Source: Anaerolineales bacterium (lineage in GTDB: Bacteria; Chloroflexota; Anaerolineae; Anaerolineales; Villigracilaceae). Taken from it: a DNA stretch of 5,693 bases. The position numbers and the translations under genes are program-made. The notes below the pieces were generated by a model. That model had not been told where the DNA came from. It saw nothing but the letters and a program-made list of their open reading frames with translations, and ran no database searches. The stretch lies in NCBI GenBank assembly GCA_025938055.1, contig JAICQC010000301.1, positions 1 through 5,693 on the forward strand, read 5' to 3'. Positions 798 to 3,829 of the stretch are shown piece after piece. The number at the start of each line of letters is the position of its first letter. The stretch's first letter is position 1.

Positions 798-3700
798 TTA
801 TCTGCTCTTGAGAGCCTGCCATACTCGTTGCGGTGTCGCCGGGATCTCGTCCACGTTGACCCCGACCGCATCGAGAATCGCATTGCCGACCGCGGGTGCG
901 ACTCCGTCCATGGGAATCTCGGCGACCGCTTTGACGCCGAACGGGTGACTCGGCTCGAAGGTCTCCACGAAGATGGTTTCGAGCGCGGGCATTTCGTCGG
1001 CGCGGAAAATATGATACCGGTCGAGGTCGCGCTCGATGGCGTTGCCTTTTTCATCGTAGCGCATCTCCTCACAGATCGCGTACCCGAGGGCTTGAGTCAT
1101 GCCTCCTTCGACCTGCCCGGACGCTGTGAGCGGATTGACGATCACACCAGAATCGACCGCCATCACGAGCCTGTCGACCGTTACCGCGCCGGTCTCCACA
1201 TCCACGGTAACTTCAGCCAACTGCGCCGCGAACGGGGGCGGTGACACCGGCGAGACATAGGATGCCACGCCCATGATCTGTTCCTGGTTATTTTTGTGAA
1301 GGGAGTCCAGGGCGATTTCCATGAAGGGAACTGCGCGCCCATCCGGGACAATTGCCTGGCGGTTTGCGAGACGAACATTCGGAGCTTCGGATTCAGGAAG
1401 CCCGAGGATCATGGTCGCGCGGACTCTGATTCGCTCTGCGCACTTTTCGGCTGCCTTCACCGCTGCGGTTCCTGAAATATAAGTGGTTGACGAGGCGTAG
1501 GCGCCTTTATCGAAGGGAGTGAAATCTGTGTCGGATGAGTAGGTGATCATATCCTCCACAGGCACACCGAGCACCTCTGCCGCCATCTGTGCCAGTACGG
1601 TGTCTGAGCCGGTGCCGAGATCGGTCGCGCCCACCAACAGGTTGAACGAGCCGTCGTCGTTCATCTTGACGGACGCGCCGCCCATATCCAGGTAGGGAAT
1701 GGCTGTGCCCTGCATGACCATGGCAACACCGATCCCTTTTCTCAAGTGTAATCCGCGCTCCCGAAAACCATCGGGACTATCGTGAGCAGAGCGCAGCGAA
1801 GTCGAAGCGTTATGCCATTCTTCATTTCCGTACTTATCATCCCATCCGATGGCAGCTCTGGCTTGTGCCACGCATTGTTCGAGCCCCACTGTGTGGATGA
1901 TCTCGGGTCGAGGCTCGCGACCCTCATTCCACGCGGTCGAAAATGGATGATATTCACCGGGATGAATGGCGTTCCTCAGGCGGAACTCGATCGGGTCGAG
2001 GTTCAGGGCGCGCGCGATCTTTTCCATGTGGCGGTCGAGGGGCCAGTAGCCTTGCGGGACGCCGTAGCCGCGGAATGCACCCGCGGGTGGTGTGTTGGTA
2101 TAGACGATGTCCGCATAGAAACGGATATTAGGAGCCTTACGATATTCTCCATCGCCGACGTACAAAGCCATGGCTTTGTGTCCGGTGTTGCCTGTGACAG
2201 TCAGCGCGTGACAGCCATATGCCCCCGTGTCAGACAGCGCATACATCGAGTTGGCAGTGATCGTCCCATCGCGCTTGACGCCGGTCTTCATCTTTATCTT
2301 CATCGGGTGGCGCGAGCGTGCGCCGATGAATTCCTCTTCGCGCGTATATTCGTAAATCACGGGTCGCCTGGTTGCAATCGTCAGATGGGCGGGAACATCT
2401 TCCATCAAAACTTCCTGCTTGCCGCCGAAGCCACCGCCGATGCGCGGCTTGATCACACGAATCCTTTTTACGGGCAAGTTCAAGACGGGTGCCAGCATTC
2501 TGCGCACATGGAATGGCACCTGCGTGGACGTGCGGATCACCAGCCGGTCATCTTCATCCCAGTAGGTTATACAAACGTGCGGCTCGATATGCACCTGCTG
2601 GACTTTAGGCACTTCGTATTCCCCTTCAAAAATCTCGTCAGCTTCGGCGAATCCTTTTTCCACATCACCGATGTCAATGCGGATGTGCGCCGCCAGATTC
2701 TTTTCCGGGTTTGAGTCCGCGAAGTTAACGAACTCCGGCTCATCGTGGATTCTGACCGCATCATCCTTCATGGCCTCGCGTGAGTCCAAAATCGCGGGCA
2801 GGATCTCGTATTCGACATCGATTAAGCGCAAGGCTAGTTCCGCAATTTCAGGAGTCTCCGCGGCGACCATCGCCACGCGGTCTCCGACAAAACGGACCTT
2901 GTGATCCAGCGAGAAGGAATCCAGCGGACCGGGAATTGGGTCGGACTGACCTGCAGTGGAGTAGATCACACGAGGGATGTCCTGCCAGGTGAGCACCGCC
3001 GCGACGCCTTTCAACTCTCTCGCACGCGTTGCGTCAATGTTTTTGATGCGAGCATGGGCATGCGGGCTTCTGAGGACACGCGCGTAGAGCATGCCGCGCA
3101 TATCCATGTCGGCAGTGAAGGCAGGTTTACCCTGCACCAGTTTGATGGCATCCACTTTCTTTTCAGGCTTGCCAACGGTCTGATACGTTTCGGTCTGTGG
3201 TGTGACGACCACTTTCGGCATCACGCTTGTTCTGACCAAAGCTGGGCTGGGCGAATCTACGTTCGGTGCAGAAGCAGGCGGAGGAAAAGCAAACGGATCA
3301 CCGCTTGCCGAGAGCTGCCCGCCCACCTCGGTATCGCCGCGCATGACAGCCGCGGCTTTCAGGACCGCCTGCACCGGTTTAAGATAACCCGTACATCGAC
3401 ACAAGACGCCAGCAATCGCCTCGCGAACCTGCTCTTCGCTCGGGTTTGGTGTTTTGTCGAGCAGCGCCTTCGCGGCAAGGATCTGGGCGGGTGTGCAGTA
3501 CCCGCACTGGATGGCGCCCGATTCAACAAACGCCTTCTGCAGCGGGTGCAAACCCTCCGTCTTCCTCCAGCCCTGATCGGGATGTTCGCCCAAGCCTTCG
3601 ATCGTAACGATGTCGTGTCCCTCTGCTTGCGCGGCGAGCATGGAGCCTGCATTGACCGGCTTGCCATCGAGCAAAACGGTGTCCGCCCCTGAGAGCCCCT

Positions 3701-3818
3701 GCTCATCACCGAATTTAATCCCATAGAAGCCAAGCCCGCGCAGGGCGGCAAGTAAAGTTATGGATGGCCTTACATCGACTATGTGTTCGATGCCATTGAT
3801 CTTCAGTGTGACGTTCAT
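798..3818 (-). CDS. Single-chain molybdenum hydroxylase, xanthine dehydrogenase/aldehyde oxidoreductase family (XdhD-like), with degenerate first Fe-S site
   Basis: 1006 residues from the ATG at 3818, which has AAGGA six bases upstream; an in-frame TTG at 3842 lacks such a site. Domains in order: ferredoxin-like fold (~1-75); helical [2Fe-2S] domain (~85-160) with Cys105, Cys108, Cys140, Cys142; a long Pro/Ser/Ala linker (~162-207); the a/b hammerhead domain (~215-335, PHAHARI); then the molybdopterin domains (~360-1006). Landmarks there: TSTQVPFHVRR (432-440), RIGGGFGGKQ (459-468), PPAGAFRGYGVPQG (577-590), GAYASSTTYISG (772-783), and KAVAEIPMDG (963-972) with candidate catalytic Glu967. The family hydroxylates purines, N-heterocycles or aldehydes at a Mo-pterin centre and passes electrons through two Fe-S clusters to FAD or another acceptor. 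Here all four ligands of the first cluster are lost, the E802 and R880 positions of bovine xanthine oxidase are Gln468 and Met550, and ~18 codons near 670-688 look inserted. No FAD subunit, maturation gene or signal peptide is visible, so it should be cytoplasmic. Substrate unknown; true xanthine dehydrogenase activity is unlikely. Confidence 0.92.
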   Translation of the reverse strand: MNVTLKINGIEHIVDVRPSITLLAALRGLGFYGIKFGDEQGLSGADTVLLDGKPVNAGSMLAAQAEGHDIVTIEGLGEHPDQGWRKTEGLHPLQKAFVESGAIQCGYCTPAQILAAKALLDKTPNPSEEQVREAIAGVLCRCTGYLKPVQAVLKAAAVMRGDTEVGGQLSASGDPFAFPPPASAPNVDSPSPALVRTSVMPKVVVTPQTETYQTVGKPEKKVDAIKLVQGKPAFTADMDMRGMLYARVLRSPHAHARIKNIDATRARELKGVAAVLTWQDIPRVIYSTAGQSDPIPGPLDSFSLDHKVRFVGDRVAMVAAETPEIAELALRLIDVEYEILPAILDSREAMKDDAVRIHDEPEFVNFADSNPEKNLAAHIRIDIGDVEKGFAEADEIFEGEYEVPKVQQVHIEPHVCITYWDEDDRLVIRTSTQVPFHVRRMLAPVLNLPVKRIRVIKPRIGGGFGGKQEVLMEDVPAHLTIATRRPVIYEYTREEEFIGARSRHPMKIKMKTGVKRDGTITANSMYALSDTGAYGCHALTVTGNTGHKAMALYVGDGEYRKAPNIRFYADIVYTNTPPAGAFRGYGVPQGYWPLDRHMEKIARALNLDPIEFRLRNAIHPGEYHPFSTAWNEGREPRPEIIHTVGLEQCVAQARAAIGWDDKYGNEEWHNASTSLRSAHDSPDGFRERGLHLRKGIGVAMVMQGTAIPYLDMGGASVKMNDDGSFNLLVGATDLGTGSDTVLAQMAAEVLGVPVEDMITYSSDTDFTPFDKGAYASSTTYISGTAAVKAAEKCAERIRVRATMILGLPESEAPNVRLANRQAIVPDGRAVPFMEIALDSLHKNNQEQIMGVASYVSPVSPPPFAAQLAEVTVDVETGAVTVDRLVMAVDSGVIVNPLTASGQVEGGMTQALGYAICEEMRYDEKGNAIERDLDRYHIFRADEMPALETIFVETFEPSHPFGVKAVAEIPMDGVAPAVGNAILDAVGVNVDEIPATPQRVWQALKSR
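1756..1809. repeat. Putative 54-bp palindromic element inserted in frame in the hydroxylase gene
   Basis: The segment is bounded by CGCT (1756-1759) and AGCG (1806-1809) and contains a perfect 6-bp hairpin, TCCCGA (1759-1764) with TCGGGA (1771-1776) around a 6-nt loop. On the coding strand it has the low-complexity run CTTCGACTTCGCTGCGCTC, typical of dispersed intergenic repeats (from memory). It is exactly 18 codons long and encodes about residues 670-688 (core STSLRSAHDSPDGFRER), between GWDDKYGNEEWH and LHLRKGIGVAM. The E. coli XdhD sequence, as remembered, has no such residues between the equivalent points. In-frame insertion is an inference; a lineage-specific loop is the alternative. 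Confidence 0.55.
3393..3506 (-). other. Intact Mo-proximal [2Fe-2S] ligand set in the hydroxylase
   Basis: Residues 103-110 read IQCGYCTP and residues 139-145 read LCRCTGY, the C-x2-C plus C-x-C pattern of the helical domain of molybdenum hydroxylases (Cys105, 108, 140, 142). In the D. gigas aldehyde oxidoreductase fold this cluster sits next to the pterin and takes the first electron from molybdenum. Its preservation argues that the enzyme is still redox-active, despite loss of the other cluster. Confidence 0.9.
3645..3707 (-). other. Degenerate plant-type [2Fe-2S] site: all four cysteines replaced
   Basis: The usual family consensus is K-x-G-C-x4-C-G-x-C-T-V-L-L-D-G-x-x-V-x-S-C. Here residues 35-59 keep the lysine, glycines and TVLLDGKPVN, but the four cysteine positions are Asp38 (3705-3707), Ser43 (3690-3692), Asp46 (3681-3683) and Gly58 (3645-3647). 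Each codon was read back from the bases. The fold's core is well kept while only the ligands are lost, which looks like selected loss of the cluster and not decay of the domain. Confidence 0.9.
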
Positions 3819-3824
3819 ATGAAT

Positions 3825-3829
3825 TCCTT
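3825..3829 (-). promoter_or_regulatory. Ribosome binding site deciding the hydroxylase start
   Basis: AAGGA on the minus strand is separated by six bases (ATTCAT) from the ATG at 3818. This fixes the start there and not at the upstream in-frame TTG at 3842, for which no Shine-Dalgarno sequence is seen. The site lies 3 nt beyond the 3832-3869 inverted repeat. Confidence 0.7.

Follow-up and report, generated by a model that had tools for sequence, protein, structure and literature searches.

Repeated loss of iron-sulfur cluster ligands among XdhD-like molybdenum hydroxylases, seen from an Anaerolineales enzyme without its distal set

Among the closest described systems is XdhD-YgfM of Escherichia coli, presented in PMC12507026 as the urate reductase of the reductive uricolytic pathway, where purified XdhD, together with a co-purifying protein of about 30 kDa, was reported to carry out the reduction of urate to yanthine driven by reduced nicotinamide adenine dinucleotide (NADH). 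For xanthine oxidoreductase (XOR), the accepted electron path is Mo - Fe/S I - Fe/S II - FAD (flavin adenine dinucleotide), as reviewed in PMC3509653. We analyzed a stretch of 5,693 nucleotides from an Anaerolineales bacterium (phylum Chloroflexota; contig JAICQC010000301.1), referred to below as the window, which encodes an XdhD-like fused iron-sulfur (Fe-S)/molybdopterin hydroxylase. A first-pass annotation of this DNA had claimed that D38, S43, D46 and G58 replace the cysteines of the distal [2Fe-2S] cluster of this protein and that its proximal set C105, C108, C140 and C142 is complete; both statements are confirmed by the codons (Table 1), and the coordinates given for the emptied site, 3645-3707, are exact, spanning G58 to D38.

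Like E. coli XdhD-YgfM, the window protein has a fused Fer2-Fer2_2-Mo chain, a YgfM-like FAD partner near many of its relatives and an equivalent of Glu606 (E632), and, as in XdhD itself, the first and third of its distal residues are Asp. In contrast to E. coli XdhD (35% identity), which has lost all eight ligands and stands on its own branch in our tree, the window protein keeps the ligands of the proximal cluster. The XdhD-like protein of Cetobacterium somerae (locus L146; loci are given by L numbers throughout), which is encoded in a uricolytic gene cluster with the FAD gene adjacent, shares the architecture and E632 but differs from the window protein (33% identity) in having all eight Cys. 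The best structural match of the window model is the Desulfovibrio gigas aldehyde oxidoreductase (1sij), a fused chain without an FAD domain that has both clusters and an aldehyde substrate, and which, unlike the window protein, carries Cys at the aligned distal sites. The Mo domain finds its best PDB sequence match in 4-hydroxybenzoyl-coenzyme A (CoA) reductase (1rm6), a reductive dehydroxylase with separate chains, complete clusters and a CoA substrate.

The loss of the distal ligands is shared by the close relatives of the window protein. Among the closest homologues (best 120 of 8000 scored), D/[ST]/D/G is found in 120/120, so that a clade sharing these residues, about which the first-pass annotation had asked, does exist; together with the window protein these make 121 rows, of which 119 read DSDG and 2 DTDG, with the four proximal Cys in all. 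In a scan of species genomes, in which the best 80 of 533 relatives were retained as loci, the distal ligands are absent from 77 of the 80, and 76 of these have the full proximal set, the other being L079, in which three of the four proximal ligands are also gone. The three intact loci are L076, L077 and L078, the last with a one-residue insertion. Among the rows listed for the sister group derived from L077, all eight Cys are present in 120/120, and among those listed from L079, 114/120 have lost the distal and kept the proximal ligands and 6/120 have lost proximal ligands as well. D38 and D46 are invariant in the distal-lost rows and position 43 is Ser or Thr in 315/315, and a partial distal Cys set occurs in 0/441 aligned rows (two locus rows have gaps at these sites). 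The earliest Cys of the window protein is C105, and therefore no alternative Cys is available to ligate a distal cluster; in the distal-lost, proximal-intact tree rows, residues 1-75 contain no Cys in 39/47 and one Cys in 8/47. At E<=0.001, the Pfam models Fer2_2 and the three Mo domains match the window protein and Fer2 does not, although Fer2 does match in the intact relative L077. Purifying selection acts on the emptied loop in the window clade: across 60 pairs, its nonsynonymous rate (dN) over the synonymous rate (dS) of the Mo domain is 0.078 for residues 33-64, compared with 0.080 for the Mo domain.

Within the class, a match at E<=1e-150 is present in 172 of 298 genomes. The 141 loci that were read yielded 119 hydroxylase open reading frames (ORFs) of >880 aa, and because these were picked from score-ordered lists and are rows rather than genomes (a few genomes contribute two), their shares are not an unbiased census: 55 have both clusters' ligands intact, 25 have lost the distal set, 6 have lost the proximal set with the distal intact, 32 have lost both (some of them retaining one proximal Cys) and 1 is without its N terminus. 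A partial distal set was seen in 0/118 scorable rows. E632, which is also invariant in 315 + 123 rows of the closer sets, and R583 are kept in all 119, and the checked Mo-site positions are nearly constant. The family has thus lost either cluster or both, repeatedly, with its Mo site nearly unchanged. Written as distal/proximal residues, the sets include DSDG/CCCC in L134 and its relatives (about 54% identity), DSDG/CESD in L127, CCCC/SDSE in L129, DTDQ/SNDE in L132, SDSV/SDSE in L135 and STAD/SSCE in L141. The reverse of the window case, with the proximal set lost and the distal set intact, is found in a clade of L129, L159, L161, L162, L164 and L169. E. coli XdhD reads DADS/SNSD with no Cys in its first 150 residues, which bears out the statement of the first-pass annotation that it lacks the ligands of both clusters (zero of eight). 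Nor is the window protein an isolated case, as its wider family has at least six distal losses by our own count, a proximal-only-lost clade and many members without either cluster.

Trees of the Mo domain, from which the trait columns were excluded, require a minimum of 9 distal and 8 proximal changes with 83 rows (LG+C20) and of 9 distal and 12 proximal changes with 159 rows, and a tree of the N-terminal region without its ligand columns, the branches of which are weakly supported, requires 7 and 7. The approximately unbiased (AU) test rejects a single clade that unites every distal-lost row from Chloroflexota (p=2e-6), and likewise one that unites the window core with the L134 clade, both of which are DSDG/CCCC (p=0.00085); it does not reject one clade of the window core with L073 and L080, hence a single loss (p=0.346). 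On the N-terminal tree, L134 lies apart from the window clade and groups with L181, which is intact; at a place where the intact L136 and L210 carry longer insertions, L134 has one as well. The AU rejection, the N-terminal tree and this insertion together lead us to conclude that D-S-D-G arose at least twice. By our own count the distal set was lost six times or more: in the window clade, the L134 clade, the DTDQ group with L172 and the L127 pair (placed with the DTDQ clade by the N-terminal tree), the STAD clade, the S-x-S-V clade and E. coli. This count rests on the trees and allows for exchange of the N-terminal module, and only the window and L134 clades were separated by a dedicated AU test.

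In the L079 group (18 rows; P0241-P0257 and P0303), the proximal state changes 6 times on the Mo tree and 2 times on the N-terminal tree, suggesting that the Fe-S N-terminal module has been exchanged between close relatives and that loss counts on the Mo-domain tree therefore run too high. The order of loss also varies, as the distal set went first in the window clade, followed by the proximal set in part of the L079 group, and the proximal-only-lost clade of L129 and its relatives is sister to the both-lost S-x-S-V group. The first-pass annotation had proposed that the window protein is a half-way form towards E. coli XdhD. This was not borne out, as XdhD groups on the tree with the eight-Cys Cetobacterium protein, so that its ligand loss is best read as separate; the placement of these two proteins is less sure because both have long branches.

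The residues that take the place of the ligands are rich in acidic side chains. Counting one consensus for each of eight lineages, Asp or Glu makes up 13 of 32 distal replacements (p=4.7e-6) and 12 of 29 proximal replacements (p=8.7e-6) against a background of 9.9%, and basic residues make up 0; the p-values are indicative only, because the lineages and consensus strings were hand-chosen and some are merged in the loss count. In the L134 clade, position 36 is His (12/12 rows), as it is in 47/67 intact rows; all other distal-lost tree rows from Chloroflexota have Phe or Tyr there (73/73), and E. coli has Asn. An oxidised [2Fe-2S](Cys)4 unit has a charge of about -2, and we infer that the replacements may substitute for this charge and pack the empty pocket. 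In the close set, a number of Mo-domain positions (576, 595, 620, 623, 631 and 644 among them) change together with distal loss, but these changes are not repeated in any consistent way in the remaining lost lineages, although the L127 pair shares those at 595 and 631, and they are therefore not tied to distal loss.

Our results lead us to propose that the window enzyme gave up its distal cluster and may have retained the ferredoxin-like domain as a folded docking domain, its empty pocket held by D38, S/T43, D46 and a small residue, with the aromatic at position 36 presumably serving in packing and the two carboxylates roughly standing in for the lost cluster's charge. Electrons from the flavin would then reach the proximal cluster and the Mo centre by a single transfer over a greater distance and at a lower rate, which might be sufficient for a slow reductive dehydroxylation. 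Such a shortened relay, as the first-pass annotation had proposed, is plausible. The predicted ferredoxin-like domain has mean predicted local distance difference test (pLDDT) values of 74-93 over ten-residue blocks of residues 1-80, and the two AlphaFold2 (AF2) models have overall means of 74.6 and 72.9. In rat XOR, mutants of Cys43 or Cys51 (PMC3509653) lack ligands of the N-terminal ferredoxin-like site, as the window protein does, but they are single changes, whereas the natural variants swap all four together; with Cys43Ser or Cys51Ala the protein was either insoluble or monomeric, and natural loss therefore probably required the other replacements. These two cysteines are given as Fe/S II ligands in the review's table and once as Fe/S I in its text. 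For E. coli XdhD, the lack of any cluster ligand combined with the NADH assay implies Fe-S-free electron delivery to Mo, if the assay holds.

An alternative to a shortened relay is a redox-neutral oxygen transposition, in which Mo withdraws two electrons while hydroxylating one purine position and gives them back at a different position or to a different molecule, as in xanthine -> urate -> yanthine, so that neither outside electrons nor a relay is needed. This would account for the repeated loss of either or both clusters with the checked Mo-site positions hardly altered, and the erosion of FAD-binding motifs beside the both-lost L132, L172 and L177 is in line with it. However, an FAD gene is found in 9/25 distal-lost and 13/32 both-lost loci, with the GGT motif kept in most, NADH is the reported donor for E. 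coli XdhD (PMC12507026; no mention of a no-NADH control was found in its account of the assay), and an enzyme without outside electrons would have no need of the proximal set, which 76 of the 77 distal-lost loci retain. We therefore consider transposition unlikely, although it is the best placed of the alternatives. Close behind it and likewise unlikely is a relaxed constraint on a low-flux enzyme, whose relay is becoming superfluous, with replacements that merely keep an unfilled pocket soluble and with chance donors, for example ferredoxin, supplying the electrons. That ligands were lost repeatedly, in different combinations and in more than one lineage, fits this idea, as does the loop of the both-lost rows, which at 0.272 is less constrained than their Mo domain at 0.208, but the window-clade loop is constrained equally to its Mo domain and the distal set is always lost whole. 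A more improbable explanation is that the emptied site binds another metal, its two Asp and Ser/Thr holding a mononuclear Fe, Mn, Zn or Ca in a structural or redox-active role. The invariance of D38 and D46 with Ser or Thr at 43, the at least two origins of DSDG and the acidic enrichment among the replacements would all suit a metal site, but S-A-S-V, S-G-S-I and S-T-A-D in other lost lineages would be poor ones. A sequencing error or pseudogene has next to no probability and is rejected on the strength of the residues shared with the 120 best homologues and 77 of 80 species loci and by the open frame under purifying selection, so that the statement of the first-pass annotation that the gene, an open frame of 1006 codons, is intact stands.

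The functional assignment is less certain than the ligand loss. The best E. coli match of the window protein is XdhD, over the full length (582 bits, compared with 446 bits for XdhA), and Glu606 is reported to be present in XdhD and absent from XdhA (PMC12507026), in agreement with the gap that we find in E. coli XdhA at the E632 position. With respect to the xanthine oxidase family, the hammerhead domain, two molybdopterin-binding domains and the Glu at the catalytic position are all present, and of the eight Cys of two [2Fe-2S] clusters, the distal four are absent and the proximal four present. The protein falls short of the models for selenium-dependent xanthine dehydrogenase (TIGR03311; 438.3 bits, cut-off 830.45) and XdhA (NF043082; 672.3 bits, cut-off 780). 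An FAD-subunit gene was found within the fetched flanks of 38 of the 80 loci, the intact L077 and L078 among them, in each case with YgfM as best match; in many relatives it lies upstream of the hydroxylase, either adjacent or up to several kilobases off. A YgfM-like gene is present in 6/6 relatives' genomes searched, that of L079 included, and an XdhC-type chaperone gene is present in 45/80 loci. An FAD gene lies directly upstream in 7/25 distal-lost, 17/55 intact, 8/32 both-lost and 0/6 proximal-lost loci, counts that take in contig ends and short flanks. A genome-wide FAD search (279/298 genomes) does not separate YgfM-like from other FAD subunits and was not used.

Several observations weigh against reading the window protein as a urate reductase with a YgfM-like partner and a shortened relay. 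The NCBIfam XdhD-type model TIGR03313 is missed (665.3 bits, cut-off 1101.9), as are the other 19 NCBIfam models listed, and we therefore name the protein XdhD-like and not XdhD; a TIGR03313 search of 301 genomes gave 4 matches, none above the cut-off. R583 is Gln in E. coli XdhD, and the substrate may therefore differ. In the window clade, other genes often lie between the FAD gene and the hydroxylase, and the second FAD motif of the FAD protein is TxAG and not TxGG. For the window clade, neither an enzyme assay nor metal contents nor the structure of a complex came to light. An FAD gene was not detected in the vicinity of any of the six proximal-lost loci, and FAD-binding motifs are eroded not only beside the three both-lost loci named above but also beside the intact L139, L140, L204 and L218. 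The window clade rarely adjoins uricolytic genes: of the first 80 loci, just 2 have SsnA, namely the intact L078 and the distal-lost L057, where the match is incomplete and lies at the end of the locus. Finally, the ferredoxin domain of the window clade (residues 1-75; the same 60 pairs) is, at 0.149, less constrained than the Mo domain, and the weaker constraint on the loop of the both-lost rows points the same way. On balance, we put the chances at about even that the window protein is an XdhD-like oxopurine reductase of the urate-reductase type with a YgfM-like FAD subunit and a shortened relay, its substrate and electron path being deduced.

Among the both-lost loci, 5 of 32 have SsnA within four genes of the hydroxylase. 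With labels taken from best BLAST matches, the order is SsnA-GuaD-FAD-hydroxylase-XdhC-luciferase family in L213 and luciferase family-FAD-hydroxylase-SsnA-HyuA in L207, both of them both-lost, and some both-lost relatives thus likely sit in uricolytic clusters. An F420 luciferase-family gene in Chloroflexota ssnA clusters is noted in the 2025 paper (PMC12507026).

At 1176-17341, the intact locus L078 combines the XdhD-like pair with another enzyme resembling xanthine dehydrogenase, an SsnA homologue, an F420 luciferase-family gene, a CofD-family gene and what we take to be a CofC-like gene. In L047 (8001-11007, genome G001), the hydroxylase frame is broken near residue 48 and the FAD gene contains a TGA, reflecting either assembly error or decay, and L056 is a contig labelled Blastopirellula marina with an Anaerolineales-type gene, probably mis-binned. 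Within the 5,693 nucleotides of the window there is no FAD-subunit, XdhC-type chaperone or SsnA gene; the neighbours are the final ~60% of an M16/PreP-type peptidase and the opening quarter of a pyrophosphatase. The minus strand at 382-734 holds a remnant of what is presumably an HD-GYP-like gene, which aligns only with the two ends of a relative of 556 aa (L029), at residues 1-41 and 478-556, and lacks everything between them; in many relatives the gene at this place is longer.

Table 1. Features of the XdhD-like hydroxylase gene in the window
Feature	Coordinates	Strand	Evidence
XdhD-like fused Fe-S/molybdopterin hydroxylase, 1006 codons + stop	798..3818	minus	Open frame (ATG at 3818, TAA at 798-800, uninterrupted); domain and family matches
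AAGGA, likely ribosome-binding site	3825..3829	minus	Sequence reading
Ferredoxin-like domain, residues 1-75, without cluster ligands; predicted ordered	3594..3818	minus	Pfam scan, AF2 model
Emptied distal [2Fe-2S] site D38, S43, D46, G58	3645..3707	minus	Codons (D38 GAT 3705-3707, S43 TCA 3690-3692, D46 GAC 3681-3683, G58 GGC 3645-3647) and homologue alignment
Fer2_2 domain, residues 72-152	3363..3605	minus	Pfam
Complete proximal [2Fe-2S] ligand set C105, C108, C140, C142	3393..3506	minus	Codons (C105 TGC 3504-3506, C108 TGC 3495-3497, C140 TGT 3399-3401, C142 TGT 3393-3395) and homologue alignment
Hammerhead and two molybdopterin-binding domains (Ald_Xan_dh_C, MoCoBD_1, MoCoBD_2), residues 229-944	987..3134	minus	Pfam
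E632, equivalent of E. coli XdhD Glu606	1923..1925	minus	Alignment; E in 159/159 tree rows
E967, which we take to be the general-base Glu position of the family	918..920	minus	Alignment; E in 155/159 tree rows, other 4 gapped

Among the open-licence literature matches listed (titles and abstract openings), no report was found of XdhD or Chloroflexota hydroxylases that lack Fe-S ligands, and the passages found on iron-sulfur in the main text of PMC12507026 concern YgfK only and say nothing of a cluster-less XdhD. The surprising part of our findings is the family-wide, repeated loss of either or both sets of Fe-S ligands, which challenges the textbook need for an unbroken Fe-S wire. We lean, by a little more than even chances, towards a family that runs on a dispensable Fe-S relay, whose clusters were lost singly or together, in either order and repeatedly, with replacements rich in carboxylates and hydroxyls and with the Mo site and often a flavin partner kept.

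If this is true, the cluster-less members, E. coli XdhD included, would need an unusual flavin-Mo distance, a moved flavin or a redox-neutral purine oxygen transposition, and any such route would break the accepted order Mo - Fe/S I - Fe/S II - FAD. Judged by its sequence, E. coli XdhD is itself cluster-less, and it is a urate reductase that has been assayed and has relevance to the gut and to gout. Intact, distal-less, proximal-less and cluster-less enzymes with a nearly identical active site form a natural deletion series, in which the need for the relay is directly testable in enzymes already adapted by evolution.

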